A stretch of DNA of 64,000 nucleotides from an uncultured Kangiella sp. (GTDB lineage: Bacteria > Pseudomonadota > Gammaproteobacteria > Enterobacterales > Kangiellaceae), in the NCBI GenBank assembly GCA_947503435.1, contig CANNDL010000001.1, positions 395,469 through 459,468 on the forward strand, in the 5' to 3' direction. A program made the translations under genes and the position numbers. The notes under the pieces are model-generated. The model was not told the origin of the DNA. It made no database searches and saw nothing but the letters and a program-made list of their open reading frames with translations. Each line of letters opens with the position of its first letter. Positions within the stretch are counted from its first letter, which is position 1. Shown here in pieces: positions 14,492 to 34,860 of this stretch.

Positions 14492-14494
14492 CAA

Positions 14495-14722: not shown

Positions 14723-15085
14723 TCAGCCTTTAATTTCAGCGTTACCGACATTATAGAAAGAGCTAATGGATTTTATAAGGTCACCTTCAAATTGATACCA
14801 CTCACACACCGTCATTTCTAAGCCCGTATTAGCATTTTTCTGCTCAAATTGAACGCAGGCTTGTTCGCCTTCTTGAATATGTGCAGTTATCGTTAAAGTG
14901 TTTCCCAAAAAATCTTTACGATTCTTATTCACTATCTCCATATATTTAGACTTAGTGCTAATGGTGCCGAAAGGGCTGGTGTGACTGAAATCATCAGTAA
15001 TAGGTAAATCATCGATATCGCCGCTATTCCAGCAATCGAACCATTTTTGGACAGAGGGATGAATGGCTATATTTAATTTGCTCAT
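14723..15085 (-). CDS. SnoaL/NTF2-like small protein
   Basis: Protein of 120 aa with the cone-fold look of SnoaL-like proteins: an N-terminal helix ending VQKWFDCWNSGDIDDL, then strands with HTSPFGTISTKSKYMEIV, and a C-terminal ICEWYQFEGDLIKSISSF-like stretch. Such proteins are cyclases, isomerases or simple ligand binders. Its start overlaps the stop of the preceding array paralogue by four bases (ATGA), showing that at least this gene is translationally coupled to the array. Confidence 0.72.
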   Translation of the reverse strand: MSKLNIAIHPSVQKWFDCWNSGDIDDLPITDDFSHTSPFGTISTKSKYMEIVNKNRKDFLGNTLTITAHIQEGEQACVQFEQKNANTGLEMTVCEWYQFEGDLIKSISSFYNVGNAEIKG

Positions 15086-15828
15086 AGGGTGTTAGTTTTT
15101 GCCTGAGGGGTATAGCCAAGAACTTTTACCACGGCTTCTTGGAGTTTTTTAATGTTATTCTTATCATTCTCGGCATTTCTACGCTGGATTTGAAACATTG
15201 CTTTCATTTGTGACAAGCGATTTATAAAGCTTTGGTTATTTGCAATAGTGTCAAAGTCGTAAGCAATTTGGGTATTTCCGTTAGCCTCTAAATCAGATTG
15301 AATGAACCTCCAATGACTACTGACTTCGCTTAAATGTTTTCTTCTGATTTCTTTGGTGTGTCTATTGTGTTCCTGACTAACCTTTATTTTCTGCAATGTT
15401 AAACCGATTAACTCTCTTAACTCGATACTCTTAATATAGGGCATTCGACCAGAGGATTGAAGCTCACTTACAGCGATTAAGTCGGTATCGTTTATTGGGT
15501 AATACCCAAAGAATGCTAAACCACGTTCGAATAATTCTCTATCGCTATCCTTTAGTTGCTTATTCATTAAGGAGTCTATAACTATAACTTGAGCTTTAGC
15601 TTGATCATCAGACCAAGCAATATCATTATCGAGTTCTTCAATGATTCTGACGGTATCGAAATATATCCGCTCTAAATATTCTTTTTCTAAAGCGCGTTCA
15701 GCTCGTTCTTCATTCCAATTCGCCACTTGGATGCCAATAAAAACACCGACAACAACAATTAAGAAATCGATAAAAACTGCAAACCAGTTTTGATCTTTGA
15801 CATGTTGAGTGATTCGTCTTAATAACAC
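15082..15828 (-). CDS. Array paralogue 1: single-pass membrane protein with conserved leader
   Basis: Protein of 248 aa, last member of the tandem family. Residues 1-15 are the basic amphipathic leader (MLLRRITQHVKDQNW), residues about 17-37 form the one membrane helix ending GIQVANWNEE. The basic N-terminus predicts the leader inside and the ~210-residue C-terminal part outside the cytoplasm. A family motif is present near residue 115 (SELQSSGRMPYIKSIELREL). Start is GTG, sharing a base with the TAG stop of paralogue 2 (TAGTG). The C-terminal part is helical and charged. Function unknown; the helix and NWNE end resemble DUF6090-type proteins, a recollection not a search. Confidence 0.85.
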   Translation of the reverse strand: MLLRRITQHVKDQNWFAVFIDFLIVVVGVFIGIQVANWNEERAERALEKEYLERIYFDTVRIIEELDNDIAWSDDQAKAQVIVIDSLMNKQLKDSDRELFERGLAFFGYYPINDTDLIAVSELQSSGRMPYIKSIELRELIGLTLQKIKVSQEHNRHTKEIRRKHLSEVSSHWRFIQSDLEANGNTQIAYDFDTIANNQSFINRLSQMKAMFQIQRRNAENDKNNIKKLQEAVVKVLGYTPQAKTNTL

Positions 15829-16598
15829 TACTGGTTCTCTTTAATTGCTTTCATAAGCTTTTTACTCACATCTGCAAAACTTTCTAAATTAAATACCTTA
15901 GTATCATTAACCGCAATCTGGAACTGCAAATTGAATAGTATTTCAGGCTTTGAGCGAAGAAATTTTGCAGTTTTATGGAAGTCTTCATCGGGTAAGTCTA
16001 AATCGCAGGTTTTAGGTAGAGAAGAGGCAAATGAATGAGCAACATCAATTACGATATCGCCACAATGTTCTTTTATTTCATCTTGAATATGAACTGGTAT
16101 TAGGCCTCTAATGTATTCTCGATAAGGGGCTATTTTTGTCATAAGATCAGTGTTGGCGTAATCTACCGCATAATGGCCAAAAATATCAGCCTTCAACTCT
16201 TCGTTTTTAATCAGATTAATTTGTCCTGTACTGAGCATTTCATTGTAAGTAGCGCGATTACTCCAAGCTGTATTTATTTGACTCGCTTGATAAGCGCCAA
16301 TCACAAACTGTTCGTCACTCACTGAATTTTCTTTATTCAGGGCATCAATAGCAGTCATGGAGTAGTTTCTGACTACAGCCTGGTACTTCAGCTCAGTCTC
16401 TATCGATAATAGGTCATTATTTAAGTCATTATAAATACGATTTAGCAATACTTTAGCTTGCGCTTCACCTGCTTTTTCATCGTTCCAGTTGGCAACCTGA
16501 ATACCCAAATAAACGCCAAAAACGACAATGGCTAAATCTAATAATACTGCAAACCAGTTTTGGTCTTTGACGTGCTGTGTAATTCTTCTAAGTAGCAT
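15828..16598 (-). CDS. Array paralogue 2
   Basis: Protein of 256 aa with the constant leader and helix; the helix differs slightly (LLDLAIVVFGVYLGIQVANWND). The central family motif is well kept (TYNEMLSTGQINLIKNEELK, about residues 115-135). Two extracytoplasmic cysteines (EHCGD and KTCDL) could form a disulfide. The C-terminal half shares little else with its neighbours. It starts 38 bases after the PLP-enzyme gene stop and overlaps paralogue 1 by one base, so the two are coupled. Confidence 0.85.
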   Translation of the reverse strand: MLLRRITQHVKDQNWFAVLLDLAIVVFGVYLGIQVANWNDEKAGEAQAKVLLNRIYNDLNNDLLSIETELKYQAVVRNYSMTAIDALNKENSVSDEQFVIGAYQASQINTAWSNRATYNEMLSTGQINLIKNEELKADIFGHYAVDYANTDLMTKIAPYREYIRGLIPVHIQDEIKEHCGDIVIDVAHSFASSLPKTCDLDLPDEDFHKTAKFLRSKPEILFNLQFQIAVNDTKVFNLESFADVSKKLMKAIKENQ

Positions 16599-16636
16599 AT
16601 AGATTCCTTGTTAATGCTACTTAGATACTAGCAGTT

Positions 16637-18487
16637 TTATAATCCCTCAACAAACTGCTGGAAGACTTGTTTATGGCGCTCTAAATCTAAATCGCCAGAA
16701 ACCGCTACGCGAGCGATATAGTCTTTATCTTTCTCTTTGGTGGTGCCTTGAGTTGAAGTCGCTGGAATCGTCCAATAACAACCTTTTAGTTGGCCATAGC
16801 TGACGCAGTACTTACTCTCAGCAGGGATTTCATCAATCATCATATTGATAAGCTTGAGATTTAAAGCTCTTTTGTATTCTTCGCGCTCTTCTGGGGTATC
16901 GCCTTTAGTCGGCAAGTCCAAAGAAAATACCGAAGGAGTAAAGCCTTGTGCTGCTAATTCTTCGGGCACAAAATTAATTTTTGCTTCTGGTAATTTTTCT
17001 TCAATGAAATTTACGAACTCGCGAGTGTTTTTATAAGCGTCGGCAATGCGTTGATTCATTGACGGCATTTGTTCTGCCAATATTTCCATCTGCAATGGTG
17101 TTGCTTGGTTATCACAAAGCTCAAGATGCAAACCAATCTTTTGCATTAAATGCTCCGCCTTTTTATTGGCGACACAATAACCGGCAGTACATTTTCCTCC
17201 GCTTGGGAATTTAGAACCACTGATATAAGCGATAGTTTGAACATTTGATAAAATATCTTCATCGCCTAAAAAATGATAATTTGGGCAGAAGGTTTGATCT
17301 AATATAAATACTGGTGCAACGGCAATCTCGCCATTTGGTGTTCTGCGCTCCTGCGATAAAGCTTGTCGCAGCTTTTCTAATTCAGGGACTTCCACTCTTG
17401 GATTGGTGGGAATTTCCGCAATGATTAATGGCACAGCATCAGCTTGAGCAACTTGCGCTAAAATCTTCTCAACGCCTTGCACCATGTCATTACCGCCATC
17501 GACCGGTAAATCCAAGACTTCTACATTATCTAAACAAGCGGCAACGCGGCGCGATTGATCGTTAGTACCGCCATAACAATTGGGCGGAACAATAATCTTA
17601 ATGGCTTTATTTGGATGCGCTTCAATTGCATGATGGATTAAGCCCATCAAAATCGCGTATTGAGTGGATAAGCCGCTAGAAGCTACCAGCGCCTCTGTCT
17701 CAACGTTTGATATGGATTTAATGGTGTTAATAACCGATTTTTGGTTTTGCTCCTTATAAAAACTTGCCGGAGAGTAGGGTAGTCCTGCTAATTGATGTAA
17801 CACCGCATTAGAATCCGCCGGCGTCATGGCAATCGATTCACGACGACGAACGTGCTGAATTTCGGCCACATAATCATAGGCTTTTGGGCTAGTCGCTAGG
17901 ACAATACTGCCGTAATCATTATGAAGGTTGATAATAAAGTCTGCTTTGTTCTTAAGCCTGAAATCACCTACATTTTCTTTGTTCTCGATAAATACCCTAG
18001 AGCCATCAAAGTAAGCTATATCATCAGCACTGTTTACTTTTTGCAGCTCAAACTGATAGCCGTAGATTTTACGCACAATATCAGCGTCAAAATCTGCAGG
18101 TAATGAGTCTTTATAGCAAATCAACGTGTTAGTATTAGAAAGTAGGTTTTTGCGTAAAATCGCCAAAATTGGCATGGTTTGCGAGGCAAAAGAAATGACG
18201 TTGCTGGCTGGTAGCTGGTTTAACTTACCAATAGCCCATTCCAGTACTGAAGAAAGTGGATGCCCCAAACGAATATAATCATAGGCGGTTGGTAAATTGC
18301 TCAGCTCAGTCTCAGATGCAGAGCCATTAGCATACAAAGCATCAAGCTTTACTAGAAACTCAGATTTCGCTAGCTCTTCGTTGTAAATATCGAGTCTATG
18401 GGTAGTCAGTCTCAACCAGTTACTTGGCTGATTTTTAAGCACATCTTTAAGGAAATTAAGCATGTTCGGGCTCATGTTCTTGCTCAT
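16637..18487 (-). CDS. PLP-dependent Cys/Met-metabolism-type enzyme with long N-terminal extension
   Basis: Protein of 616 aa. Residues from about 230 look like a fold-type I PLP enzyme of the cystathionine gamma-synthase group: ALVASSGLSTQYAILMGLIH (cofactor phosphate region), FILDQTFCPN (Asp pairing with the pyridine N) and YISGSKFPSGGKCTAGY with the likely Schiff-base lysine in SGSK. Family members are about 400 aa, so roughly 220 N-terminal residues are an extra region I do not recognise. The substrate is unknown; lyase or synthase chemistry on sulfur amino acids is only a family inference. It is cytosolic, with no membrane segment. It interrupts the membrane-protein array and lies directly behind a decayed array leader. 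Confidence 0.75.
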   Translation of the reverse strand: MSKNMSPNMLNFLKDVLKNQPSNWLRLTTHRLDIYNEELAKSEFLVKLDALYANGSASETELSNLPTAYDYIRLGHPLSSVLEWAIGKLNQLPASNVISFASQTMPILAILRKNLLSNTNTLICYKDSLPADFDADIVRKIYGYQFELQKVNSADDIAYFDGSRVFIENKENVGDFRLKNKADFIINLHNDYGSIVLATSPKAYDYVAEIQHVRRRESIAMTPADSNAVLHQLAGLPYSPASFYKEQNQKSVINTIKSISNVETEALVASSGLSTQYAILMGLIHHAIEAHPNKAIKIIVPPNCYGGTNDQSRRVAACLDNVEVLDLPVDGGNDMVQGVEKILAQVAQADAVPLIIAEIPTNPRVEVPELEKLRQALSQERRTPNGEIAVAPVFILDQTFCPNYHFLGDEDILSNVQTIAYISGSKFPSGGKCTAGYCVANKKAEHLMQKIGLHLELCDNQATPLQMEILAEQMPSMNQRIADAYKNTREFVNFIEEKLPEAKINFVPEELAAQGFTPSVFSLDLPTKGDTPEEREEYKRALNLKLINMMIDEIPAESKYCVSYGQLKGCYWTIPATSTQGTTKEKDKDYIARVAVSGDLDLERHKQVFQQFVEGL

Positions 18488-18601
18488 ATAGGGGGCGTAA
18501 ATGCTCCGTCTTGCGAATAGTTGCTAATATACAACAACCCTAGGAATAAATGTATGAGTGGGGGCGGAATAATTTGTTACAAGGGGAGATAAAAGAGCGA
18601 G

Positions 18602-18647
18602 CTAGTTTTGATTTTTTAGGTGTTGAGTGATTTTTCTAAATAATACT
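18602..18647 (-). pseudogene. Decayed array leader remnant (first ~15 codons only)
   Basis: Reading leftward from the paralogue 3 stop, AATCACTCAACAC is identical to the leader coding for ITQH in other copies. The following CTAAAAAATCAAAACTAG matches GTCAAAGATCAAAACTGG with four differences. The start codon is lost, TGG has become TAG and a frame shift lies near the start, so it cannot be translated. Similarity ends at the Trp15 codon. It marks a lost array member, whose place is now held by the PLP-enzyme gene. Confidence 0.75.
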
Positions 18648-19363
18648 TATTTGTTCTCTTGTAAAATTTCCAAAACCTCTTTGAGCGCTCTGTTATGGTT
18701 TTCGATATTTGAATAAAACCAGCTTTGCAAATCTAGAGCTACCTTTTGTTGCTCATGATATTTTGTATCAGCCATCATATCTGAAAAGTTATACGACTTT
18801 ACGGTTCTAACTAACGGGTTAGCATGGTTCACATCTTCCAACACCGCATACTTAGGAAGGTAGCCATAAGCAGCAAGCATGGCATTGTGAATGCTACGAT
18901 AGTTATATTCTGTACTTAGCGCTGCTTGATCAAAAACAGCTAATGCACTTCTTATATTGTTATTAGTAATCAAGTTGAGTTGACCACTGGATAAAAGCTC
19001 TATGTAAGTGGGCGAGCGAAGCATGGTTTTTCTGTAACTACCACCCCAACGTAGCGCAAATTTGATAGCGTCATCTTCTTCAGGTAATGCAGAACCTCGT
19101 TCAAAAGCTTTAACTAAGGTTTCTAAATTAATGATGATTTCTTTATGCCGATTTAATGCCTGAATTGAAAACTCTTCTAGCATTTTGAAATCATTAACTA
19201 ATCGTTCATGAACTAATTTTTGACTCTTCTCATTTAAGCGTTCTTCATTCCAATTCGCAACCTGAATACCAATAAAAACACCGACGACAACAATTAGGAA
19301 GTCCACAAAAACCGCAAACCAGTTTTGATCTTTGATGTGTTTTGTTATTCTTCTTAGTAGCAT
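18647..19363 (-). CDS. Array paralogue 3
   Basis: Protein of 238 aa from the ATG at 19363, which shares one base with the stop of paralogue 4 (TGATG); a TTG codon just before is inside that stop region and is rejected. Leader is MLLRRITKHIKDQNW and the helix ends GIQVANWNEER. The central motif is among the best preserved (TYIELLSSGQLNLITNNNIR, about residues 110-130). The C-terminal part is predicted helical and extracytoplasmic. It is followed at once by the decayed leader. Confidence 0.85.
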   Translation of the reverse strand: MLLRRITKHIKDQNWFAVFVDFLIVVVGVFIGIQVANWNEERLNEKSQKLVHERLVNDFKMLEEFSIQALNRHKEIIINLETLVKAFERGSALPEEDDAIKFALRWGGSYRKTMLRSPTYIELLSSGQLNLITNNNIRSALAVFDQAALSTEYNYRSIHNAMLAAYGYLPKYAVLEDVNHANPLVRTVKSYNFSDMMADTKYHEQQKVALDLQSWFYSNIENHNRALKEVLEILQENK

Positions 19364-20124
19364 CAACGGCGCTCCAATTCTTGATTGATAAGGTCAATGG
19401 CTTTTTGTGCCGCCATATTTTGGTTTCCTAAAACAGTTGGTAAAGAAACGATTCCGCTAACCCATAATGTTAAATAAGGTTTAATATTTGGATTAGAAAT
19501 AATCTTTTCTATTATGGCTTTTGCTTCTTCATCAGAAATTCCCTTTGGGCAGTCAAGAATATAGTTCTCAAGGCCATCAACTAAAGACCAACACTGATCC
19601 CAGTAAAACTCTGAGGCCTTTACATCTACATATTGCCTAACCAATGAGCGGTACGGGGGAAATTCGAGGAATGTTATGGCATTGCTTTTATTCTGAGCTA
19701 AATAATCTTCGACTGCATCTATTATCTCAACACTTTGAGGAAAACCTTTGTTTCGCATATTTTGATAACTTGAGTCTGAAACATATAAATCTTGCCACTG
19801 TGATGCATGCATCAAATCAACTATTCTATTCCAACAGTTATCTTCACAATCAACTTCTGCATCAATAAAAGCCAGTGATCTTTTACCAGCATCTGCAGCC
19901 TGTTGATAAGAATTTATTTTAGATTCAGTTGTATTAATTGAAGCCAGAATTTCTTTTCTAAGCGCTATTAGAGCTTGCGTTTCTTTTTTGAAAACTGCGC
20001 GTTCATCATTCCAATTCGCCACCTGAATACCGATAAAGACACCAACAACGACAATCAAAAAATCCACAAAAACCGCAAACCAGTTTTGGTCTTTGACGTG
20101 TTGAGTTATTCTTCTTAGTAGCAT
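19363..20124 (-). CDS. Array paralogue 4 (cysteine-rich)
   Basis: Protein of 253 aa with the standard leader and helix (GIQVANWNDER). Downstream it is one of the most diverged members: the usual SSG motif is reduced to YQNMRNKGFPQSVEIIDAV. Its outer part has four cysteines (DCEDNCWNR and QCW, then LDCPKG), suggesting disulfides if exported. It overlaps the beta-propeller chimera by one base (TAATG) and paralogue 3 by one base, so all three are probably translated together. Confidence 0.83.
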   Translation of the reverse strand: MLLRRITQHVKDQNWFAVFVDFLIVVVGVFIGIQVANWNDERAVFKKETQALIALRKEILASINTTESKINSYQQAADAGKRSLAFIDAEVDCEDNCWNRIVDLMHASQWQDLYVSDSSYQNMRNKGFPQSVEIIDAVEDYLAQNKSNAITFLEFPPYRSLVRQYVDVKASEFYWDQCWSLVDGLENYILDCPKGISDEEAKAIIEKIISNPNIKPYLTLWVSGIVSLPTVLGNQNMAAQKAIDLINQELERR

Positions 20125-21377
20125 TATTTGGATACTCCATGCTTTCCAATTAATCCCATCGAACCAGGTCCTTCTCCTGTTCGCAAAACGTATGGATGCT
20201 TCGTTAGTTGGTATCCGTCGATTGTGTAGACATTGATATGATTTGCTTGGGTGGACTGCACAAATAGCTTTGATCCATCTGGACTAAACTCTATACCCTG
20301 AGTAACCGCTTCGATAGGTAGATAATAAAGAACTTGCATAGAGGCTGACGCTAAATCTATTACTGCCAGATGTCCAACATAAGGACCATCAATGCAAGTA
20401 ACCACAGCAAACTTTCCGCTTGGGTGAAAGGCGAGGCTTTCGAGCCCTTGAGCCACGTTAGGAATAAGGTCAGTTACCATCGGTATTGTTTTAGTCATAT
20501 CAATACTCAACACAGCATCTAGCGGCGGTTTAGCAGCAATTCCTAGTCCATTTAAGACCAAAGCACGCTTACCGTCTGGGCTGAAACGTGGTGCAAAAGG
20601 CTGATCAATTTCTCCTAAATCAGGAGCAATACCAATTTGGCTAACATGGCTTATAGAGTTACCTGACAATTCAAACAAATGTAATTCAACTGGTGTCGAG
20701 TAATCAAGCCTGTGTGCAGCAGTCGCGATGATAGATTTTTCATCAGGGCTTATAGCGAATGAAGTGAAAAACAAGTCGAACGGTTTACTTTCAGAAATAA
20801 TCTTGGGTTGCCCCGCATCCATCAATAGGACATGAAATTGATGATCTGTAATGGCAATGACGCGCTTATCATCGGGGTGTGCCATGGCCTGCCATGCATG
20901 GTTTGGTAACTTAATGGTATGGGTAGGAGAAAGATTTTTTGCCTCAAGATCAACCACTGTAATTTGACTTTGTGAATTACTCTTTTTGTCTCGATTACCA
21001 AATGGATGGTTGGGTATGAAAGCATATCGTCCGTTTGAAACTACCGCTAAATGAGGCGCTCCCGCAAAATTATTCGGAGCGACACCGGCAACAGTTCGTG
21101 TGGATGGTGGTTTGTTAGGCGAGATATCTATGACAGTCAAAGAATCTGGAAATTGACGCTTACCATTCCAAGCAGTAAAAAGTGCTTGTCCATCATTAGC
21201 ACTCACAATGCGTAGTGGTTCTGTAGAGGTAATGTAGGGAGTTTTATTTACCAAAGATGAAGTGCAAGCTGTGCAAAATACCACTGATATTAGTGTGAAT
21301 ATCTGTAAAAAATATCTAGTACCGGCTTCAAACCAATTTGGGTTCCTATTGTGTTGAGTGAGTCTTCTTAGTAGCAT
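20124..21377 (-). CDS. Chimera: array leader fused to a beta-propeller (YVTN/lactonase-like)
   Basis: Protein of 417 aa. Residues 1-16 are a clear array leader (MLLRRLTQHNRNPNWF), after which a different hydrophobic helix follows (about 22-40, FLQIFTLISVVFCTACTSS); it may serve as a signal or lipoprotein anchor, though the Cys context is a poor lipobox. From about residue 45 onward there are repeated propeller blades (LAVVSNGRYAFIPNHP, FAISPDEKSIIATAAH, PRFSPDGKRALVLNG, LAFHPSGKFAVVT, IEFSPDGSKLFVQS), the SPDG-type repeats of seven-bladed propellers. Such proteins bind ligands or are lactonase-like; no catalytic assignment is possible. It lies 5 bases after paralogue 5 and is coupled to paralogue 4. 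Confidence 0.82.
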   Translation of the reverse strand: MLLRRLTQHNRNPNWFEAGTRYFLQIFTLISVVFCTACTSSLVNKTPYITSTEPLRIVSANDGQALFTAWNGKRQFPDSLTVIDISPNKPPSTRTVAGVAPNNFAGAPHLAVVSNGRYAFIPNHPFGNRDKKSNSQSQITVVDLEAKNLSPTHTIKLPNHAWQAMAHPDDKRVIAITDHQFHVLLMDAGQPKIISESKPFDLFFTSFAISPDEKSIIATAAHRLDYSTPVELHLFELSGNSISHVSQIGIAPDLGEIDQPFAPRFSPDGKRALVLNGLGIAAKPPLDAVLSIDMTKTIPMVTDLIPNVAQGLESLAFHPSGKFAVVTCIDGPYVGHLAVIDLASASMQVLYYLPIEAVTQGIEFSPDGSKLFVQSTQANHINVYTIDGYQLTKHPYVLRTGEGPGSMGLIGKHGVSK

Positions 21378-21382
21378 TGATT

Positions 21383-22117
21383 CTAGTCCTTGTGATTGAG
21401 ATGTAAATCTTCATCAATTAATCGATGCAATTGCTCTAATTGTTTCGACCATGGAATAACGTGTGAATTAATGAAAGCATCAGTAATATCTATCCCATCA
21501 TTAATGGCATTAACAAACCTATTGTTAGCATGTAGTGCTTGTAAGTTACATAGACGATCTAATCGAATCTCGTTATTTTCATCAGTTCGTGCCCTCAATT
21601 TGATTGAGCTTGAAAAGACATCTGGAATATCAATCATTTCAGTTTTTGCGAAGTCTTGAAAACGTCTTAATACTTCAATACGAGTATGAAGTTGTAAAAT
21701 GGCACTTCTTATGTGTTCGTTACTGAGTAAGTTAAGATTTCCAGTGGCCAGCAATTCATTGATTGTTTTCAATGAGGGTAAATTAATCTGGATGCTTACT
21801 GTGGAAGGAAAGTAACAGCTAACGTAGTTGTCAGTGAATTCATTGCCATCACCATTCATTAGTTCGACCATTTCTAAACTAGAATTTAAAGTGTTGATTC
21901 TTCGAGTAATAGTTCTTTTGCTAAATTTTTCAGCGAACTCAATATCTCCATGTATTCGCGTTAGATATGTAATCTCGTCTTGTTTTGCCTTGATTGACTC
22001 ATTCCAATTAGCTACTTGAATACCAATAAAAACACCGACTACAACAATCAAAAAATCAATAAAAACCGCAAACCAGTTTTGGTTTTTAACGTGCTGAGTA
22101 ATTCTCCTTAGTAGCAT
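21383..22117 (-). CDS. Array paralogue 5
   Basis: Protein of 244 aa with leader MLLRRITQHVKNQNW and a helix ending GIQVANWNES. The central motif is clear (TINELLATGNLNLLSNEHIR, about residues 115-135). Cys residues at VSCYFP and RLCNLQ flank the motif on either side. It shares one base with paralogue 6 upstream and ends five bases before the propeller chimera. Sequence after residue 40 is not closely similar to any single neighbour. Confidence 0.85.
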   Translation of the reverse strand: MLLRRITQHVKNQNWFAVFIDFLIVVVGVFIGIQVANWNESIKAKQDEITYLTRIHGDIEFAEKFSKRTITRRINTLNSSLEMVELMNGDGNEFTDNYVSCYFPSTVSIQINLPSLKTINELLATGNLNLLSNEHIRSAILQLHTRIEVLRRFQDFAKTEMIDIPDVFSSSIKLRARTDENNEIRLDRLCNLQALHANNRFVNAINDGIDITDAFINSHVIPWSKQLEQLHRLIDEDLHLNHKD

Positions 22118-23651: not shown

Positions 23652-23734
23652 TGCACGTTACCTTTTACAGCCTTAATAAAAAACGCAAACCAGTCTTGGT
23701 CTTTTACGTGTTTGGTGATTCTTCTAAGTAACAT
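23648..23734 (-). pseudogene. Truncated array leader, 28-codon open frame
   Basis: The frame begins MLLRRITKHVKDQDWFAFF, an array leader, then runs IKAVKGNVQ and stops. Family similarity ends around residue 17-20, before the membrane helix is complete. A plausible ribosome site (AGGA, about six bases before the ATG) is present, and the TGA overlaps the ATG of paralogue 7. It may be a dead remnant whose body was replaced by paralogue 7, or it may still be translated and couple ribosomes into that gene. Confidence 0.75.
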
Positions 23735-23747
23735 ATTAATCCTAGTG

Positions 23748-26469: not shown

Positions 26470-28691
26470 TGAGAAGAATCCGGATTAGTTAGTTGACCGA
26501 GTAACTGCTGTTGCTCTTTGAGATCTTTCATGAGTTGCTGGCGTGCTTGTATAAATGCAGCTTCTTGTCGCATGTCGTTATATTGTGGTAAGTGATCAAC
26601 CCAATACCAGCCACGAGTGCGTTTAGACTTAACAATGTCGGCATAAACCTGTGCCGCTTGCGATGAATTTCCGCTGACGGCTAAATAGCCCATCTTTTGA
26701 AAGAACCCTTGAGTGTCCGTTGGGCCAATTTGGATTATTTTTTCGATTGCAGATAAAAGCTTGTTTGACTCTTCTGCACGATTTACTTCTTGTAGACACC
26801 ATGCAATGCTTAAGTCGTTAAACACTTCTGCTGCATTGGATTGGTAGTTTTGTCTAAACTTATTTGGTGATGTTTGTTGCCATTGTTCTAATGAAAGAGT
26901 GCAATCACGATTGAGGCCTGCAATTACAGCCAGACTATTTCGGTTTATTCTATCCGGACTTCCTTCTACGATGTTTAGAAATTGCCTTTTAGGTGTTAGG
27001 TAATCTCCATTATTCATGGCTAATAAAAATTCTTGCCAAGGGATATTGACGTAATTTGGAGATATGGTTTTAGATTCTTCTAAAACAGAAGTGGCGGACT
27101 CAATGTCGTTAATATTAAGGTAATGTAATAGTAACCAAAAACGATTAAGGATGTTGCCTTGATCTAAATTAACAGCTCTAGTTTGCTCTATAACGGCTTT
27201 GGCATAATTTCCTAGATCGTCATTAACCCAAGCTAAACCGTTAACTGCACCTGGAAACTTGGGATCGGCTTGATGTACTTTTTCAAATTGAACCAATGCT
27301 TCTTCCATAAAGTTATTTGAGCGCAAACTCCAACCTACATTAACTAAAATTACACTAGATAGTGGGTCAAGTTCTGCTGCTTTTCGATGAAACTCTAGTG
27401 CTTCAGATGCTCTACCTAAATCGACCCTAAGCATATGTCCATACCAGTGATAAGCGGCGGCAATATTAGGATTCAAACTTATAGAATATAAATACTCCTT
27501 TTCGGCTTCATTAAAATTGCCTTTTTCGTCTAGTAACGCAGCATTAACTAAGTGTGCTTTTGCGGATAAAGGATCTAATTCAAGAGCCTTAGCAATAACT
27601 GGTTCACTAAGTGCCTGTGACTCTATTGGGTTTAAATCACTGTATTCATTTAACAAACGATAGGCTATGGCTTGCCCTACATAGGCATCGACGTAATTAG
27701 GATCAAGTGTAGTCGCTTTTTGATAAAGTGCTAAGGCCTCTTTTAAAGCTGGTCCTGTGCGCTTTTCTATCAGTTGTTGTGCTGCTATATAAGCATCATA
27801 GGCTTCTAAATTAGTAGTTGGGATTTTGGCTATACTTTTACTTTCTTGTTCAGTGAGTTGTGCTTTTAGCGCAGCTGCAATCTGTTGCGAAATTTCTGTT
27901 TGAATTTTAAAAATATTTTCTGTTGTGAGTTCACGATCATATATTTCAGCCCATAAATGCTCATCTGTATTGGCATCAATTAACTGAACATTTAAACGGA
28001 TTTGATTGCCAGCGCGTTGTACGCCTCCTTCGAGGATATTGGCAACGCCCAATTCGCTGGCGATTTGTTTTATTGGCAAAGTAGTATCTTTGTATTGCAA
28101 AACCGAAGTCCGAGAAATAACTTTTAGCGCTGAAATTTTGGATAAGTGTGTAAGCAAGTCATCGTGCAAGCCTAAGGTAAATGGCTCATTAGCTACATCA
28201 TTCGCCATATTGGCAAAAGGTAGAACCGCGATTGATTTGTCTGATACAGAGGTTATCGGAGCAACTTGCGCAGGGGGTTCTGCAGTTTCTTGATTATTTT
28301 CTACAACTTGTGGTGTTATAGAATTGTCATCTAAAACATTATTCGATGATGGAAACATTTGTTGCCATACAATTAAACCTGCAAGACCAATTACAGCGAA
28401 TAAAGTGACTATATCGAGTTTCTTAGCAGTATGAGCTGTTATCGAGTTATCCCTATCAACATCTTTTTCTTTTTTAATGCCCTCAGGCGTAATCTCATAG
28501 GCCCAAGAAAAAAGCATTGCTGGAATAAAGCCAAGAATGAGTACTAAGGTAATTGCGGAAATGATCCAGTCGGGTAGTAGCAGGGCAGGAGTAAGAATGT
28601 CAGCAATTTGCAGCAACAACCAGCCTATAACCGCATAGGCAACCGCTACACGAACAACATTACGACGCTTAAGTTCTTTTATAAAGCTCAC
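26466..28691 (-). CDS. TolB/FlgO-like-domain TPR membrane protein B
   Basis: Protein of 741 aa with the same layout as its neighbours: N-terminal membrane region (KELKRRNVVRVAVAYAVIGW and LVLILGFIPAMLFSWAYEIT), a third helix near residue 95-110, the domain SDKSIAVLPFANMANDVANE with ISRTSVLQYKD and ANILEGGVQRAGN, then many TPRs (ATTLDPNYVDAYVGQAIAYR, SISLNPNIAAAYHWYGHML, AELDPLSSVILVNVGW). The start is GTG and overlaps the preceding stop (GTGA). TPR arrays usually bind partner proteins; the partner here is unknown. Confidence 0.85.
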   Translation of the reverse strand: MSFIKELKRRNVVRVAVAYAVIGWLLLQIADILTPALLLPDWIISAITLVLILGFIPAMLFSWAYEITPEGIKKEKDVDRDNSITAHTAKKLDIVTLFAVIGLAGLIVWQQMFPSSNNVLDDNSITPQVVENNQETAEPPAQVAPITSVSDKSIAVLPFANMANDVANEPFTLGLHDDLLTHLSKISALKVISRTSVLQYKDTTLPIKQIASELGVANILEGGVQRAGNQIRLNVQLIDANTDEHLWAEIYDRELTTENIFKIQTEISQQIAAALKAQLTEQESKSIAKIPTTNLEAYDAYIAAQQLIEKRTGPALKEALALYQKATTLDPNYVDAYVGQAIAYRLLNEYSDLNPIESQALSEPVIAKALELDPLSAKAHLVNAALLDEKGNFNEAEKEYLYSISLNPNIAAAYHWYGHMLRVDLGRASEALEFHRKAAELDPLSSVILVNVGWSLRSNNFMEEALVQFEKVHQADPKFPGAVNGLAWVNDDLGNYAKAVIEQTRAVNLDQGNILNRFWLLLHYLNINDIESATSVLEESKTISPNYVNIPWQEFLLAMNNGDYLTPKRQFLNIVEGSPDRINRNSLAVIAGLNRDCTLSLEQWQQTSPNKFRQNYQSNAAEVFNDLSIAWCLQEVNRAEESNKLLSAIEKIIQIGPTDTQGFFQKMGYLAVSGNSSQAAQVYADIVKSKRTRGWYWVDHLPQYNDMRQEAAFIQARQQLMKDLKEQQQLLGQLTNPDSSQ

Positions 28692-30919
28692 AAGGCTTTT
28701 CCAGTAATGGCAATTTGTTGCTGCTTAACTTTTTCCATGATTTTTGCTTGAATAGCTTTGAATCTAGGCTCCTCACGAACCCAATCATATCTATGTCCAG
28801 AATATTCCAACCACCAAAACCTATTTACTCGCACTTCGCTCTCTTTTTCTAGTCCTGAAAGTAAGGCTTCTTTGTTTTTAGTAGCCATTGCCATTTGAAT
28901 GCCGAATTTATCCAAATCATCTGATTTTGCTTTGTATTCTATTGCATTTTTTATGAGGTCCTGTGCATGTTCCTTTCCATAAATGGACTCAATTAAATCG
29001 ATATATCTTAATTTCACAAAGTATTGTGTAATTGATTCTACCTTAGAGTTAGTGATTTCCGCTTTTGCCCAAGGTAAAAATTTGTCTGCGATCAATTCGG
29101 GGGTATTACTTTTGTGAGAAAGATATTCAATAATTCTACCCACAGACGGATTGACGTCACTCCCACGAGAGGATTCGTTATCATCAATTAGTTTATTGAT
29201 TATTTCCTTTGATTGTTCAACTTCACCAATTTGAAAATAATAAGTAGCTTTTGCTGCTAATGTCATTTGGCCTTGTGGATTAGTTTTTTCTGCTTTCTCA
29301 ATTTCAATTAGCGCATTTTCTGGTAGCAGAACCGATAAAAAGTTAAAAGCAATAGTGGCAGGAATTTCATGATCTTTAGTATCTATTTTTTCAGATTTCA
29401 AAAGAAGTTCATTCGCCTTCTGCATTTCTAGTGTTTTAGCATAGATATTTTCTAATGGTTGAGTTGAACTAGGATCTTCAGGAGCTAGATTTGCGCTTTG
29501 CAAGGCATGGAATAATGCTTTGTCGTTTATATCATCTCTATTATACAGAAGGGATAAAGATGAGTGTAAATCAGCTGACATGGGATCCTTAGATAGTAAT
29601 TTTTTGTATATGATTATTGACCGCTGTCCTTTGCCAGTAATTCTATAAAATCTTGCCATCCAATCTCCAACAAATGGATTTTCCGGCGATAGTTCATAAC
29701 CTTTTTCAATATAATGTTGAAATGACAATGGATCTGATTGATTCTTTGACCACTCAGACAATCCCCGCATGACAAATGCTGCTCCCGAACGCTCGTCTAT
29801 CCTTAGCATACTTTCCGCAATGGGTTTAAGTGTAAGTCCAACTTCTCTCCAGTTCATAAGCCCAGTAAAGGCCATTTTGGAATATGTTTCTCCGAGTCCT
29901 TGATAAGCTAATAAGTAATTAGGATCTTCTTTAATGGCCGCTTCAAAATGCTCTATTGCTTGAGGTAAGCTTTCGTAGCTGTAGATATTTAAGTCTTGTC
30001 TGCCTTTAATGTATTCATCATATGCACGTGAACTAATCGTTCCGCCAATGGATTCTGTATCATGGAGTTGATCAAGCAGTTTAACCTTTAATGCTTCAAC
30101 AACTGCATGGGATATTTCATCTTGAATGGCAAAAATATCGTCTTTAGTTCTGTCGTAAGTTCCTGACCATAGATGAAAACCATTATCGACTTTAATTAAT
30201 TGAGCTGTAATACGAATTTTATCGCCATGACTTCTAACACTACCTTCTAACAAATGTGCAACCCTAAGTTGCTTACCAATAGAAGTCATGTCCTCATTCT
30301 TACCTTTAAAGTAGAAAGAGGAGGTTCGAGCAGCTACTCTCAACTCATCGACTTGCGCTAACAAGTGCAGTAAAGATTCCGTAAGCCCATCAGAAAAATA
30401 ATCTTGTTCCGAATCAGAACTCATATTGACAAAAGGTAATACGGCAATGGATTTTTCAGAAACCACGTCAGTAACTTTAAATGACCCTTCAGTGGCTTTT
30501 TCTTGTGTAGAGTTATCTGTAGAAACAACTTGAGACGGTTGCTCGATGTTACTAATGGACTTTTCTTTACTAGGAGCAATGAAACGATTAGCGATCATCA
30601 AACCAATTAAGACAACTACGGCGAATAATGTTATGTAATCTAGTTTTTTTGCAGTGACATGAGTTATAGACTCATCCCGCTCAATATCTTTTTCACGTTT
30701 TATCCCTTCAGGAGTTAGCTCAAAAGCCCATGAAAAGAGTAAAGTTGGAATAAAGCCTAAGATTAAAATTAAGGTTATTGCTGAAACCAGAGATTCAGGA
30801 AGACGTAGAGCGGGGGTCAAAATATCGGCTATTTGCAGCAACAGCCAGCCTATAACCGCATAGGCTACAGCTACGCGGAAAACATTACGCCGTTTTAGCT
30901 CTTTGAAGAAGCTATCCAT
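28688..30919 (-). CDS. TolB/FlgO-like-domain TPR membrane protein A
   Basis: Protein of 743 aa and first gene of the leftward transcript. N-terminal membrane region with MDSFFKELKRRNVFRVAVAY and LILILGFIPTLLFSWAFELT, a third helix near 93-111, then SEKSIAVLPFVNMSSDSEQD, RTSSFYFKGKNEDM and HLLEGSVRSHGDKI of the TolB/FlgO-like domain, followed by divergent TPRs (AIKEDPNYLLAYQGLGETY, LLSKDPMSADLHSSLSLLY). The ATG has a good ribosome site (GAGGGG). A sigma70-type promoter lies 35-63 bases upstream. Its first 110 residues are nearly the same as in B and C, while the TPR parts have diverged. Confidence 0.86.
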   Translation of the reverse strand: MDSFFKELKRRNVFRVAVAYAVIGWLLLQIADILTPALRLPESLVSAITLILILGFIPTLLFSWAFELTPEGIKREKDIERDESITHVTAKKLDYITLFAVVVLIGLMIANRFIAPSKEKSISNIEQPSQVVSTDNSTQEKATEGSFKVTDVVSEKSIAVLPFVNMSSDSEQDYFSDGLTESLLHLLAQVDELRVAARTSSFYFKGKNEDMTSIGKQLRVAHLLEGSVRSHGDKIRITAQLIKVDNGFHLWSGTYDRTKDDIFAIQDEISHAVVEALKVKLLDQLHDTESIGGTISSRAYDEYIKGRQDLNIYSYESLPQAIEHFEAAIKEDPNYLLAYQGLGETYSKMAFTGLMNWREVGLTLKPIAESMLRIDERSGAAFVMRGLSEWSKNQSDPLSFQHYIEKGYELSPENPFVGDWMARFYRITGKGQRSIIIYKKLLSKDPMSADLHSSLSLLYNRDDINDKALFHALQSANLAPEDPSSTQPLENIYAKTLEMQKANELLLKSEKIDTKDHEIPATIAFNFLSVLLPENALIEIEKAEKTNPQGQMTLAAKATYYFQIGEVEQSKEIINKLIDDNESSRGSDVNPSVGRIIEYLSHKSNTPELIADKFLPWAKAEITNSKVESITQYFVKLRYIDLIESIYGKEHAQDLIKNAIEYKAKSDDLDKFGIQMAMATKNKEALLSGLEKESEVRVNRFWWLEYSGHRYDWVREEPRFKAIQAKIMEKVKQQQIAITGKAL

Positions 30920-30953
30920 ATCCCCTCATAATTATCCGTAATTACTTGATTCC

Positions 30954-30982: not shown

Positions 30983-31041
30983 TCGGAAGTGTTTGATTTA
31001 GTTGGCTTTTTGACTTGTTGGGGAAAGGTTTTTATGAGTGT

Positions 31042-31809
31042 CTATTTATCTTTAAAACTATCATCGCCTTTAAGTATAGCTAAAATAGCATCAGCTCTAT
31101 TATTTAAGTTGCCAGCAATACCGATCGAAACACCAGCATAACTGAGCATATAACGAAGATCATCTTTAAGTTCATTATTAGATTGAAGAGTTTTGGCAAG
31201 ACTTATCAAATCGCCATGCTTAGCGGGAGCGGGACATCTTAAAAGTTCATGTGTATCGGGAATTTTTACTTTATAACACTTTGATTGGAAATAGCTTTGT
31301 AGTTCAAAAGGTATAATTCGCCGTAGATTTTCTCGATAGCTAGGGATTACTTGAATCGTCGAGAAGCCCGAGTGGGAATAAAAATCACTTAAGGTGTTAA
31401 CTAACTCCTGATCTTCTAAAAGCCCCAAATTGCCAGAGCTAATAATTTCGTCGTAGGTACCTCTTTGAATGGTGATAGTAAAGGCATGGCTTGATTGAAA
31501 AAAATCACGAACCATTAGCCAAGCGGTCTCATCATTTTCTGGTTCTTTTGAATGCTCCATTGCAGCGAGGCCATACTCTATTTGTTGAGCATAACTATCT
31601 TGACGCGCAAGGAGCATTTTTCGATTGTTTGATATTTCCTCTATAAGACGAGTCTTATAATTTTCTGCGCGCTGTTTATCGTTTATGCGTTCATTCCAAT
31701 TCGCCACCTGAATACCGATAAAAACACCAACCACGACTATTAAGAAATCCACAAAAACCGCGAACCAATTTTGGTTTTTAACGTGTTGAGTGATTCGTCT
31801 TAGTAGCAT
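31042..31809 (-). CDS. Array paralogue 9
   Basis: Protein of 255 aa with leader MLLRRITQHVKNQNW and helix ending GIQVANWNERI. The central motif is strong (TYDEIISSGNLGLLEDQELV, about residues 110-130). Two outer cysteines (SKCYKV and LLRCPAP) resemble those in paralogue 2, and FELQSYFQSKC parallels its VHIQDEIKEHC, so paralogues 2 and 9 may be closest relatives. It is the last gene of the block driven by P1; no clear terminator separates it from P2. Confidence 0.85.
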   Translation of the reverse strand: MLLRRITQHVKNQNWFAVFVDFLIVVVGVFIGIQVANWNERINDKQRAENYKTRLIEEISNNRKMLLARQDSYAQQIEYGLAAMEHSKEPENDETAWLMVRDFFQSSHAFTITIQRGTYDEIISSGNLGLLEDQELVNTLSDFYSHSGFSTIQVIPSYRENLRRIIPFELQSYFQSKCYKVKIPDTHELLRCPAPAKHGDLISLAKTLQSNNELKDDLRYMLSYAGVSIGIAGNLNNRADAILAILKGDDSFKDK

Positions 31810-31814
31810 TTTAT

Positions 31815-32549
31815 TTATTTCCCTTGAAGAGATGCATGTCCATTAGGGTAGAGTGCGGCTTCAAGTTCCTTTACTGATTGAACTATTTCGTTATGAGCTC
31901 TTCTGAAAGTATTTCTGCTTAACTTATTGAAGTGATACAGCTGCGCCACCGCATGTACAAAAGCCTTGTCATTAACTAGTTGCTTAAAATTATACTGAGG
32001 GATTGGAACAAAGTTTTCAGATGGACTCATATATACTCTATTAAAAACGAGATCTCGAGCGCTTTTAGCTTGATCAACGTAGGTTTTCATATTACGACTT
32101 GCTCTAGTCCAGGATGAATATAATCTCGATAAAATCTCGTGGTACTTGGTTCCTTGATAATCATCAACAATATCAGATGTTTCTAAGCGTTTTACCAGTA
32201 AGGAAGTATCAGGTTGATGAACACGAATAATAGTAACTAAACCAGAGTTGAATCGGGTAGTTTCCGAATTGTCCAGCTTTCCGCTGCGCAAGGTTTCAAC
32301 GACAAAGCGTTCATTGTTGCCGACTTCCTCCAAAGATTCAAAAAACCTTTCATAATTTTCTATACGTGGAGCTAATTCAGTATGCAGTAATTCTAAATAG
32401 GAGAGTTGCTCTTTTTGGTTTTGTCGTTCTGCATTCCAATTGGCCACTTGTATACCAATATAAACCCCCACCACAACTATTAACAAGTCCACAAAAACCG
32501 CAAACCAGTTTTGATCTTTGACGTGTTGGGTGACTCTTCTAAGTAACAT
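31815..32549 (-). CDS. Array paralogue 10
   Basis: Protein of 244 aa with leader MLLRRVTQHVKDQNW and helix VDLLIVVVGVYIGIQVANWNAER. The SSG motif is strongly altered (LLVKRLETSDIVDDYQG, then KYHEILSRLY). The outer part has no cysteine. It follows paralogue 11 by 34 bases and precedes paralogue 9 by five. Confidence 0.83.
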   Translation of the reverse strand: MLLRRVTQHVKDQNWFAVFVDLLIVVVGVYIGIQVANWNAERQNQKEQLSYLELLHTELAPRIENYERFFESLEEVGNNERFVVETLRSGKLDNSETTRFNSGLVTIIRVHQPDTSLLVKRLETSDIVDDYQGTKYHEILSRLYSSWTRASRNMKTYVDQAKSARDLVFNRVYMSPSENFVPIPQYNFKQLVNDKAFVHAVAQLYHFNKLSRNTFRRAHNEIVQSVKELEAALYPNGHASLQGK

Positions 32550-32583
32550 TTTTTGTCCTATCCTAGGTAAATCGTTTCATGTC

Positions 32584-33315
32584 TTACTGCTGAACTTTTT
32601 GTTCTTCTGTAAGGGTTTGAGAAAATTGCGTTATCCCTTTTTTTAGACTTGCTAACCGTAAACCAATTACTTCATAAAACCCCATGGTATTATTGAATTC
32701 GCGTCTAAAATTAGAGTCTCTACAAATGTCATTTATGGGCTTCGATAGCTTGATATCGTAGTATGCGTCATCAACTAGATTGTTAAAGTTGGCATCAATA
32801 AAATTATTATTTCTAATATGATTAATCCACATTAAATTAAAGTTAAGCGTTATTTGTTCTTCTTGCTCTTTGATACCATATTGATAATAAGAGAGTTGTT
32901 TGCGGAACTCTGGAGTTAATAAATTAAGCGAGCGTTCTTGAGAAGTGATCTCCTTTAGAGAGGCATTTAAAAAAGTTGGCACAGGATCTCTAGATAAAAG
33001 ATTAATAGCTGCAACTATTGTTGCGCGATTGGTGCTTGAGTCTTCGCAAGATTGTAAAATCGAAATCGCGTCGAATTTTGTTTTCTTTCCGTCTGTGATT
33101 TTTGTAGTGATACTATCAATGATAGTTATGTTTGCTTGAACTTCTAATTGAAGGCGCTCAAGGTTTTGATTAAGCGCTTTTTTATTATTAATTTGCTCAT
33201 TCCAATTAGCGACCTGAATACCGATAAAAACACCGACCACGACAATTAAAAAGTCGACAAAAACCGCAAACCAGTTTTGGTCTTTTACGTGTTGTGTGAT
33301 TCTTCTTAATAGCAT
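32584..33315 (-). CDS. Array paralogue 11
   Basis: Protein of 243 aa with the exact consensus leader MLLRRITQHVKDQNWFAVF and helix ending GIQVANWNEQI. The central motif is partly kept (SLKEITSQERSLNLLTPEFR). Cysteines at LQSCEDS and NDICRDS. It shares one base with the stop of paralogue 12 (TAATG), so the two are translationally coupled. Confidence 0.84.
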   Translation of the reverse strand: MLLRRITQHVKDQNWFAVFVDFLIVVVGVFIGIQVANWNEQINNKKALNQNLERLQLEVQANITIIDSITTKITDGKKTKFDAISILQSCEDSSTNRATIVAAINLLSRDPVPTFLNASLKEITSQERSLNLLTPEFRKQLSYYQYGIKEQEEQITLNFNLMWINHIRNNNFIDANFNNLVDDAYYDIKLSKPINDICRDSNFRREFNNTMGFYEVIGLRLASLKKGITQFSQTLTEEQKVQQ

Positions 33316-34079
33316 TATTGTTCACCCACTTTCTTAACTGTGTCCAGCTCAATATCTATTGCTTCTGAAAGCTCTGCTAACTTTTGGCTCAATGGTTTTA
33401 TCCCGCGTCTATAATAAGATTGGTAAAGGTCTAAGTTCTTAGTGAGAGAGTTACGGAAATTGTGATTGTTTCTCATTTTCTCTACGTCGCATTGAGCTCC
33501 AAGAGTAATTCCTTCACTTTTAGTAAAATTGTCTAAATCAATTATCATTAATGTGAACATTTCAGGATATTTTTCAGTAATTAACGATTTTTTGCCTTGT
33601 GTAGCATAAATATAGTCACGGGCTTTATTGACTTCTTGTATGTAGTTGAGGATTTCTATTCTTAATGATTCTGATGAAATTGTTTCTAATCGGCCAGATG
33701 CAAGCAACTCTGTAATGGTTGGTAATTCACTGGGTGGAATTGTTCTAAATGTTTCAGAAATCCAAACCATAGAACGGCATTCACGATCAGTGAATGAAAT
33801 GGTGTCGTCATCACTGAATATCTTTTTATACGCTTCTGAAGCAACGCTGATGATTAATGGCCGAAACTCATCATATGGCTTTCTTAATTCAATGAGTTGT
33901 TTTATTTCATCATTTAACCTTTCAAGATATGCAATTTCATCTTTTTTCCTATCTTGCTCTATTGCCCACTCTTGGACTTGCAAACCGATAAAAACACCGA
34001 CAACGACAATTAAAAAATCCACAAAAACTGCAAACCAGTTTTGGTCTTTGACGTGATGGGTGATTCTTCGTAGTAACAT
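33315..34079 (-). CDS. Array paralogue 12
   Basis: Protein of 254 aa with leader MLLRRITHHVKDQNW; the helix ends GVFIGLQVQEWAIEQ, so the NWN is replaced. The central motif is well preserved (TITELLASGRLETISSESLR, about residues 115-135). Cysteines at RECRSMV and GAQCDVE. The overall pattern, including the late QCDVEKMRNNHNFRNSL stretch, is similar in position to the CDHVGMRTDQEF of paralogue 13, suggesting these two are close. Confidence 0.84.
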   Translation of the reverse strand: MLLRRITHHVKDQNWFAVFVDFLIVVVGVFIGLQVQEWAIEQDRKKDEIAYLERLNDEIKQLIELRKPYDEFRPLIISVASEAYKKIFSDDDTISFTDRECRSMVWISETFRTIPPSELPTITELLASGRLETISSESLRIEILNYIQEVNKARDYIYATQGKKSLITEKYPEMFTLMIIDLDNFTKSEGITLGAQCDVEKMRNNHNFRNSLTKNLDLYQSYYRRGIKPLSQKLAELSEAIDIELDTVKKVGEQ

Positions 34080-34119
34080 TATCCTTATCCTCGAAGTATC
34101 TTTGGACGTGTCAATTTAA

Positions 34120-34860
34120 TCATTGCGAATCTCTTTTGATATTAGGATTAACCAATTGTTTTAGCCTTTCTCGTAATTTAGAAAATGCAGTTTCAACACT
34201 CAAAATACGTCGAGTCATAAGGTCTTGATAGTCTAAATTGACGGTTATAACGTTAATAAACTCTTGATCTGTACGCATTCCCACATGATCGCACGTGGCT
34301 TTTGCCCGAACTTCCTCGTTATCATCGTAATAGTGAGTTAATTTTATGTATTTGGAATAGTTTACGACGGGATCGATAATATAACGCCCTCGTTTTGCAA
34401 CCGATTCGTCGATGAGGTTTTTGGTCTGAGAAATATTAGAAAGTAAGCTAAGTACTTCAGCATCCTGTATCAAGCCTAACCCGTTGGTTGCCCTTAACTC
34501 TTCAACACTTGGCAGTGAGGGGAGGGCATTAGAGTGAAGGGCTGATCCTGCTATTGCAATGCACTCTTCATCTGTAAGAGGTTGCGGTTTGTCAGCTTCA
34601 AGCTTTTCCACACCAGAGGCTAATGCGCCAAAGCGAGAACTGTGTCGACCAAGCAGTGTGCCAGCAAGCTCATTGGATCGCTCAGAGTCTTCATAAAGTC
34701 TTTTTAGAAATTGGGCCTCTAAAACCCGATCAGCCCGTTCCTCATTCCAATTCGCTACCTGAATACCAATAAAAACACCAACCACGACTATTAAGAAGTC
34801 CACAAAAACCGCAAACCAGTTTTGGTCTTTGACGTGTTGGGTGATGCGTCTGAGTAACAT
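34120..34860 (-). CDS. Array paralogue 13 (first gene after promoter P1)
   Basis: Protein of 246 aa with the exact consensus leader and helix ending GIQVANWNEERAD. Central motif SVEELRATNGLGLIQDAEVL lies at about residues 110-130. Cysteines at DEECIAI and KATCDHV. As the first gene of the right-hand block it starts 35 bases downstream of the P1 -10 box, with AAGGATAAG giving a ribosome site before the ATG. The gap of 40 bases to paralogue 12 holds nothing obvious. Confidence 0.85.
   Translation of the reverse strand: MLLRRITQHVKDQNWFAVFVDFLIVVVGVFIGIQVANWNEERADRVLEAQFLKRLYEDSERSNELAGTLLGRHSSRFGALASGVEKLEADKPQPLTDEECIAIAGSALHSNALPSLPSVEELRATNGLGLIQDAEVLSLLSNISQTKNLIDESVAKRGRYIIDPVVNYSKYIKLTHYYDDNEEVRAKATCDHVGMRTDQEFINVITVNLDYQDLMTRRILSVETAFSKLRERLKQLVNPNIKRDSQ

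Follow-up and report, generated by a model that had tools for sequence, protein, structure and literature searches.

A tandem array of DUF6090-related membrane proteins in Kangiella whose constant leaders and diverged bodies have separate histories

A stretch of 64,000 nucleotides from the genome of an uncultured marine Kangiella sp. (assembly GCA_947503435.1, contig CANNDL010000001.1, positions 395,469 to 459,468; hereafter the window) carries a tandem array of thirteen membrane-protein genes with a common N-terminal leader and widely differing remainders. We consider it probable that this is a modular array of proteins related to the Pfam family DUF6090, in which a constant leader is joined to many old, diverged bodies that are exchanged at the leaders. 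Here leader denotes the first 40 residues or codons and body the remainder of each family protein; G marks assemblies (G000 being the 2.36-Mb Kangiella genome of the window), C the contigs of G000 and L the loci, and the main array sits on C1. An earlier reading made from the letters of the window and its open reading frames (ORFs), the sequence-only reading, had pointed out the array; its observation is confirmed here and its interpretation partly supported. The new point is one of genealogy, as sequence comparison with relatives shows that anchors and outer domains have been shuffled against each other.

All thirteen leftward ORFs that had been claimed are present at 15082-34860 on the minus strand and encode 238-257 amino acids from the leader start codon (Table 1). 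A leader query matches each of them with E-values from 5.9e-12 to 5.3e-25. The common 40-residue leader described earlier is near-identical in twelve, while that of the gene at 22878 has diverged (50% over 42 residues), and the motif said to be usual, QVANWNE, was a slightly generous description: it is strict in 6 of the 13 leaders, with QVANWN in 9. The reported one-base overlaps occur at five junctions between family genes of the window. Several features had been overlooked, namely two more full-length copies in G000 outside the main array (C2:402030 and C1:110707), a triple of related genes on C6, two bodiless leader pieces, a half-leader that starts a lipoprotein gene, and the SnoaL-like, pyridoxal-phosphate (PLP) enzyme and three TPR genes listed in Table 1.

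Evidence for separate histories comes from a family set of 312 genes, trimmed to 298 by dropping duplicate loci (L057, L065, L130, L135 and L141) and identical DNA, and to 273 by dropping loci outside the assembly table and genes below 200 amino acids. It includes 31 cross-genome pairs whose bodies reach at least 70% identity, and in 24 of these the synonymous identity of the body is 0.55 or more. In 22 of these 24 the leader lies below the body in synonymous identity (p 2e-5), as do codons 1-20 in 18 and codons 21-40 in 19. When each gene is used once, the leader is lower than the body in 17 of 18 pairs, and the two half-leaders in 14 and 15, respectively. Ordinary neighbouring genes behave in the opposite manner: of 35 control pairs 18 pass the same cut, their first 40 codons are lower in only three, and on average these codons are 0.064 higher in synonymous identity. 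Between recent relatives, synonymous divergence is higher in the leader than in the body. The two parts have had separate histories, with exchange points within the leaders; exchange at the leader is well supported.

Individual loci point in the same direction. Between the gene at 18647 and its G026 orthologue, synonymous divergence (dS) is 0.97 in the leader and 0.14 in the body; for 33315 the values are 0.48 and 0.29. The body of 15082 is saturated against G026 (leader dS 1.03), and against G025 both parts are. In G026 the orthologue of 33315 is joined directly to the 18647 body, and the junction falls within a leader: the DNA upstream matches 33315 at its end and the next leader at its start, and the body that follows matches 18647. 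A second locus, placed by eye between an apparent ribosomal RNA operon and an M61-like peptidase gene, has in G000 and G025 common DNA upstream near the gene, a leader identical at 35 of 40 residues and a common half-leader scar downstream, with bodies that are 23% identical. Array content likewise varies among close relatives. In a close pair of Lysobacterales metagenome bins with flanks 94% identical in DNA over 4.8 kb, one has five full genes and a short one and the other one full gene and a short one.

Body relationships reach far beyond the single genome. Among 229 genes from the 30 assemblies with four or more copies, only 7 have their nearest body within their own genome, while the nearest leader is found there at a mean frequency of 0.32 (protein) or 0.38 (DNA), where chance alone would give 0.031. 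Bodies that are 60-70% alike span Alpha- and Gammaproteobacteria; for example, Paraglaciecola L098 (Gammaproteobacteria) and Henriciella L096 (Alphaproteobacteria) share 69% in the body and 50% in the leader. The 15828 body is 70% alike to Marinicella L100, yet 52% to the closest copy in the congener G025. By sequence, bodies are thus shared between genera and between the two classes, and leaders tend toward own-genome likeness. The pattern is not confined to the leader of the main array, as a C6 array of G000 (C6:169633-171915, equal to L043:4634-6916) has a leader of its own, which we take to be Bacteroidetes-like. Its three tandem DUF6090 genes have leaders 93-96% alike over 46 residues and bodies 15-19% alike, and the matching place in G026 (L047) holds two genes, one with a 69% body match, differing in order and bodies.

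Ordinary tandem duplication and divergence, with a leader constrained as an anchor, a fast body and no need for exchange, would fit the tandem copies, the conservation of the leader across classes and a ratio of nonsynonymous to synonymous differences (pN/pS) of 0.153 over 66 paralogue leader pairs. As sole account it is contradicted by the synonymous comparison of leader and body with its control, and it also sits poorly with the rarity of closest body relatives in the same array and with the different bodies at one locus in G000 and G025; we regard it as decidedly unlikely. The earlier description of a constant anchor with a diverged exterior stands, whereas that of a plainly conserved leader and a fast exterior does not. 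The leader is the synonymously more diverged part between recent relatives, and the bodies are under purifying selection in the three measurable pairs, with a nonsynonymous-to-synonymous rate ratio (omega) of 0.21 and 0.27 in two array pairs and 0.15 in a C6-array pair (two more pairs are saturated). Measuring the rates of leader and body separately, as had been proposed, gave these values.

Where family genes lie less than 150 nt apart, the stop and start codons overlap by four bases or one in 149 of 173 junctions. A search for half-leaders (over 12 bits, hence about 12 codons at minimum, with ends up to codon 35 admitted) found 317 full leaders and 26 pieces with the 5' part alone. Three pieces were removed, a frameshift in L076 and a stop codon in L082, both in otherwise full leaders, and a contig end in L122. 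The 23 genuine half-leaders all end at codons 12-23, and 16 lie within 120 nt after a family gene, ten of these with a 4- or 1-base overlap. They are partly non-independent, as L041 and L045 carry the same scar; a 24th, in L046, was detected by DNA only and is the counterpart of the scar at 18591-18643. Ten genes with a full leader encode only 39-148 amino acids each, leader included. Two half-leaders are fused in frame to unrelated exported proteins, the beta-propeller lipoprotein of the window and L081:7314-8180 (weak matches of 15.3 and 16.3 bits), apparently as separate events. The L081 partner has a sub-threshold SprT-like match. At L126:6762-6887 a leader stops at codon 41 and abuts a gene in reverse orientation, where the close relative L109 has a whole gene.

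A modular array exchanged at its leaders could work as follows. The constant leader, a basic helix and a membrane helix with acidic residue 21, Gly28, Gln34 and Trp38, would be held at protein level for a membrane task common to the paralogues, and each body would be one among many old, diverged helical bundles. Repeated in tandem, the leaders may act as short homologous arms, and recombination between them, most simply of the RecA type, would swap, add and delete bodies in frame. A newly gained body would thus at once receive the anchor of the array and its stop/start coupling. The anchor might owe its conservation to docking, either with a shared partner or among the paralogues, and the bodies might form a repertoire of recognisers, sensors or protectors. 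Residue conservation together with exchange points in the leaders suggests that the leader is the constrained membrane part and the body-exchange joint at once. A more elaborate picture, of a constant-region/variable-region system with a docking helix read by one partner, traded recogniser bodies recombined inside the coding sequence and a genome-specific repertoire, strikes us as improbable.

Several points weigh against leader-mediated exchange of bodies. Taken singly, only 6 of the 24 pairs have a Fisher p below 0.05, and of the seven pairs whose body synonymous identity is below 0.55 and close to saturation, only two have the lower value in the leader. Control pairs are few, with rpsB three times among them; the sample was gathered via leader patterns, and many of its assemblies are metagenome bins. 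The data do not support a fixed mobile cassette, as the 5' half-leader downstream matches better than the gene's own in 19 of 45 pairs and worse in 21 (p 0.8). The idea that a conserved DNA box at codons 13-19 serves generally as the recombination site was rejected, such a box being irregular outside Kangiella. Finally, no family of known role is prominent in the VIA list of structural neighbours of the 15828 model, which holds generic bundles.

Integron cassette arrays consist of serial exchangeable units and leave half sites behind, and the Kangiella array resembles them in both respects. Site-specific cassettes of this sort would have a fixed site at about codon 13-20, with a unit made of the 3' leader, the body and the next 5' half-leader. 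This agrees with the ends of all 23 half-leaders, given that ends to codon 35 would have been listed, and with strong extra synonymous conservation in Kangiella leaders at codons 13-19, reaching just to the scar ends. A few pairs fit the unit, for instance L109/L126 (0.96 in the next 5' half and 0.73 in the own 5' half). However, the 45-pair comparison gives no such preference; in it a gene's own 3' half-leader matches better than the next gene's in 34 cases and worse in 9, as expected for body-adjacent DNA. Breakpoints in own leaders, read by eye, range from about codon 21 to 41, and scars that end before the membrane helix may be merely those that cells tolerate. Nor is the conserved box general: among 14 groups examined, the excess at codons 13-19 is 0.69 in Kangiella, 0.75 in Hyphomonas LADU and 0.77 in WGLS, while it is -0.18 in Marinicella litoralis and 0.09-0.10 in three others. 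Phage_integrase has five matches in G000 and none on C1 or C6, so that the array contig has no tyrosine recombinase of this family (other recombinase families were not searched); on C2, which has a leader gene at 402 kb, matches lie at 66 and 166 kb. Unlike integrons, the Kangiella array thus has no nearby integrase of this type, a joint inside the coding region and a unit that is not fixed, and integron-like cassettes seem very unlikely.

The claim that the leader is held at protein level is borne out by its residues as well as by its pN/pS, and its synonymous sites do differ between array copies. Among the 273 genes residue 21 is Asp or Glu and residue 28 Gly in all 273, with W15 in 272, W38 in 270 and Q34 in 266. 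This residue conservation exceeds the needs of a plain anchor. As the genes were gathered by leader likeness, overall leader conservation is partly selected. Comparison of the leader membrane helix with ExbD/TolR gave an hhalign probability of 0.4 over 3 columns and so lends no support to kinship, in a weak test that used three of five genome ExbD copies.

As to known families, two array proteins pass the curated DUF6090 (PF19578) cut-off of 23.5 bits, 15828 (34.2) and 22878 (38.7). Eight fall below it, with 18647 (22.0) and 31815 (22.7) nearest, and 19363, 23748 and 32584 are unlisted. The family thus resembles DUF6090 in the membrane-helix motif and part of the body and differs in that 11 of 13 window proteins sit below the cut-off or are unlisted; most of these appear to be related to it. 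Pfam gives DUF6090 no function, the name was not found in the literature searched, and the caution of the sequence-only reading in claiming no function is still right. In alignment A2, 57 of 65 sequences match DUF6090 (E up to 0.1). Single-linkage clustering of the 273 bodies at E below 1e-5 places 251 in one cluster, including 11 of the 13 window bodies, with 31815 and 22117 outside; a loose EL.S.G motif is common to the 11.

AlphaFold models of 15828 (65 natural relatives aligned) and 33315 (50), which come from two divergent subfamilies, reach a mean predicted local distance difference test score (pLDDT) of 94.6 and 90.7 and give the same order of secondary structure. Helix 2-11 is followed by a single unbroken helix, 15-88 in 15828 and 15-87 in 33315, comprising the membrane part and about 50 residues beyond it, into a helical bundle. 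Short helices and two strands follow, and the last element is a long C-terminal bundle helix (219-255 or 206-253). By inspection the array proteins have one N-terminal hydrophobic helix and neither a second membrane helix nor a cytoplasmic output domain. An N-in topology with an extracytoplasmic body, which may be periplasmic, would fit the basic residues that precede the membrane helix and the cysteine pairs that are nearly invariant within two subfamilies (C179/C198 in alignment A2 and C101/C197 in A3). A Foldseek search of the Protein Data Bank (PDB) with the 15828 model gave no match at E up to 0.001, and the best PDB match by sequence for alignment A2 was a short chain named m4D2 (E 0.014). 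NCBIfam and PADLOC scans covered 10 of the 13 window proteins, and that of NCBIfam gave weak matches only.

The range of bodies, their sharing and the purifying selection on them (omega 0.15-0.27) suggest that they may form a stable set of different specificities, for recognition, sensing or protection. They could be half-receptors, that is, single-pass sensors in which a four-helix-bundle ligand domain would act on one shared partner by way of the constant membrane helix. The unbroken passage of the membrane helix into the bundle in both models agrees with this, as do the polar residues kept in that helix and the chemoreceptor and kinase sensor bundles among the structural neighbours (Tar 7.9, Tsr 7.0, 4k0d 7.3). 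The second membrane helix and cytoplasmic output domain of such sensors are not seen by inspection, and we consider the idea doubtful. Alternatively, the genes could be orphan immunity arrays for interbacterial defence, each body neutralising a different delivered toxin. The rAID orphan immunity arrays (PMC12247911) are arrays of diverged, horizontally gained genes, and the Kangiella locus is like them in this; its array form, horizontally shared bodies, patchy presence and copy-number change between close relatives would all fit. The Kangiella array differs from them in having a common membrane leader, no linked tyrosine recombinase and no immunity domain over the cut-off. No Pfam immunity family passed its cut-off in any of the 13 proteins, and no immunity or defence model matched well: a YezG-like match in 15082 is sub-threshold (E 0.007), and PADLOC gave only weak matches in two of the ten scanned (E 0.02-0.03). 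Purifying selection on the bodies is a further point against immunity. The sheath gene VipB of the type VI secretion system is absent from the five leader-bearing Kangiella genomes among the ten searched, its sole match being in G021, which has no leader, so immunity to the cell's own system was discarded; victims, however, need no such system. On balance immunity seems unlikely.

Arrays of this kind are scattered widely but unevenly over the Alpha- and Gammaproteobacteria. Counting G000, the leader is present in 5 of 20 genomes of the genus (E up to 0.01), 14 of 295 of the order and 13 of 398 sampled from the phylum (both E up to 1e-6). Among the best 80 of 173 confirmed stretches, multi-copy loci occur in Robiginitomaculum, Marinicaulis, Hyphomonas, Henriciella, Hellea, Marinicella, Wenzhouxiangella, Paraglaciecola and others, with up to 15 copies in 12.7 kb. 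Whether the leader always occurs in tandem had been posed as a check; two or more matches lie in 55 of the 91 loci scanned. Carriage by phages or plasmids found no support: no relative was confirmed among 27 pattern stretches from viral contigs, and plasmid and phage searches with 33315 as the only query gave no match.

We found no description of modular exchangeable membrane-protein sets of this kind in the literature searched. Type III effector families are known for terminal reassortment and fragment recombination. In the Crinklers of Phytophthora, too, recombination has combined a conserved N-terminal part with many different C-terminal parts (PMC3726527). The Kangiella family shares this design and differs in that its constant part is a membrane anchor, its genes form coupled tandem arrays and there is no hint of host injection. 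Should the leader indeed serve for docking as well as for recombination, then two bacterial classes maintain modular sets of membrane proteins that can be exchanged, as if the cell kept a collection of spare parts, and dozens of natural domain swaps are ready for testing. A further warning is that the best-conserved region of such a family can be genealogically the least stable, so that trees based on the leader would mislead.

Table 1 Features of the array and its surroundings in the window, with cysteine-synthase-like genes beside arrays of Marinicaulis.
Feature	Position	Strand	Remarks
Array gene 1 (transcription order), constant leader and body	34120..34860	-	
Array gene 2	33315..34079	-	G026 orthologue L046:4817-5581, body 90.3% nt; AlphaFold model ma2372c9912aa
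Array gene 3	32584..33315	-	One-base overlap with 33315
Array gene 4	31815..32549	-	Body a singleton in single-linkage clustering
Array gene 5	31042..31809	-	Body 57% to Lysobacterales gene (L109)
Three TPR genes inside array	24547..30919	-	Two with sub-threshold FlgO matches
Array gene 6	23748..24506	-	Body 57% to alphaproteobacterial gene (L123)
Half-leader (codons 1-20) without body	23675..23734	-	Short ORF, stop/start-coupled to 22878
Array gene 7, divergent leader type	22878..23651	-	Body 67% to Paraglaciecola L090; above DUF6090 cut-off
Array gene 8	22117..22878	-	Body 51% to Marinicaulis L123
Array gene 9	21383..22117	-	Body 53% to Marinicella L084
Beta-propeller lipoprotein gene (lipobox by eye)	20124..21377	-	ORF starts with half-leader, codons 1-16, 15.3 bits
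Array gene 10	19363..20124	-	Body 62.5% to Lysobacterales L109
Array gene 11	18647..19363	-	G026 orthologue L046:5581-6297
Decayed half-leader, sub-array end	18591..18643	-	Scar common to G026 (L046:6305-6352)
Cys/Met-metabolism PLP-dependent enzyme gene	16637..18487	-	Same site in G025, G026, G008, G011, G024
Array gene 12	15828..16598	-	Above DUF6090 cut-off; AlphaFold model m3b706465067e
Array gene 13, GTG start	15082..15828	-	
SnoaL-like gene	14723..15085	-	4-base overlap with end of array gene 13 (15082)
Marinicaulis cysteine-synthase-like genes	L062:2839-3900, L070:5992-7089, L081:9613-10674, L129:7607-8653		

The array stretch is flanked by map/glnD and rpsB (gene names by eye). Leader genes occur at the same site in G025 and G026, and none were found there in G004, G011, G024, G008, G006, G010 and G021 (seven of seven; nhmmer E 1 or worse). 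Within the map-rpsB stretch (11941-18487; L044, L046, L050-L052) small glyoxalase-, GST-, GNAT- and SnoaL-like genes, mostly named by eye, vary, and it looks like an accessory hot spot in the genus. Neighbours that recur among 56 assemblies are TPR/FlgO-like genes (11), SnoaL/DUF4440 genes (7) and two small families with a hydrophobic N-terminus (12 and 8), none of them constant. The three tandem TPR genes of the window also have a common conserved N-terminal hydrophobic segment. Small proteins with a hydrophobic N-terminus lie in or beside arrays at L087:6935-7879, L083:5393-5983, L078:5456-6004, L060:8420-8911, L122:947-1921 and L088:2781-3704. For the first four Pfam has no name for the N-terminal hydrophobic part; the last two share four bases with the family gene that follows. 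In four Marinicaulis assemblies a gene that by eye is cysteine-synthase-like lies 55-599 nt past the last family gene, in L062 and L129 directly after a half-leader. The Kangiella array, too, flanks a Cys/Met PLP-enzyme gene, a parallel that is possibly a coincidence.

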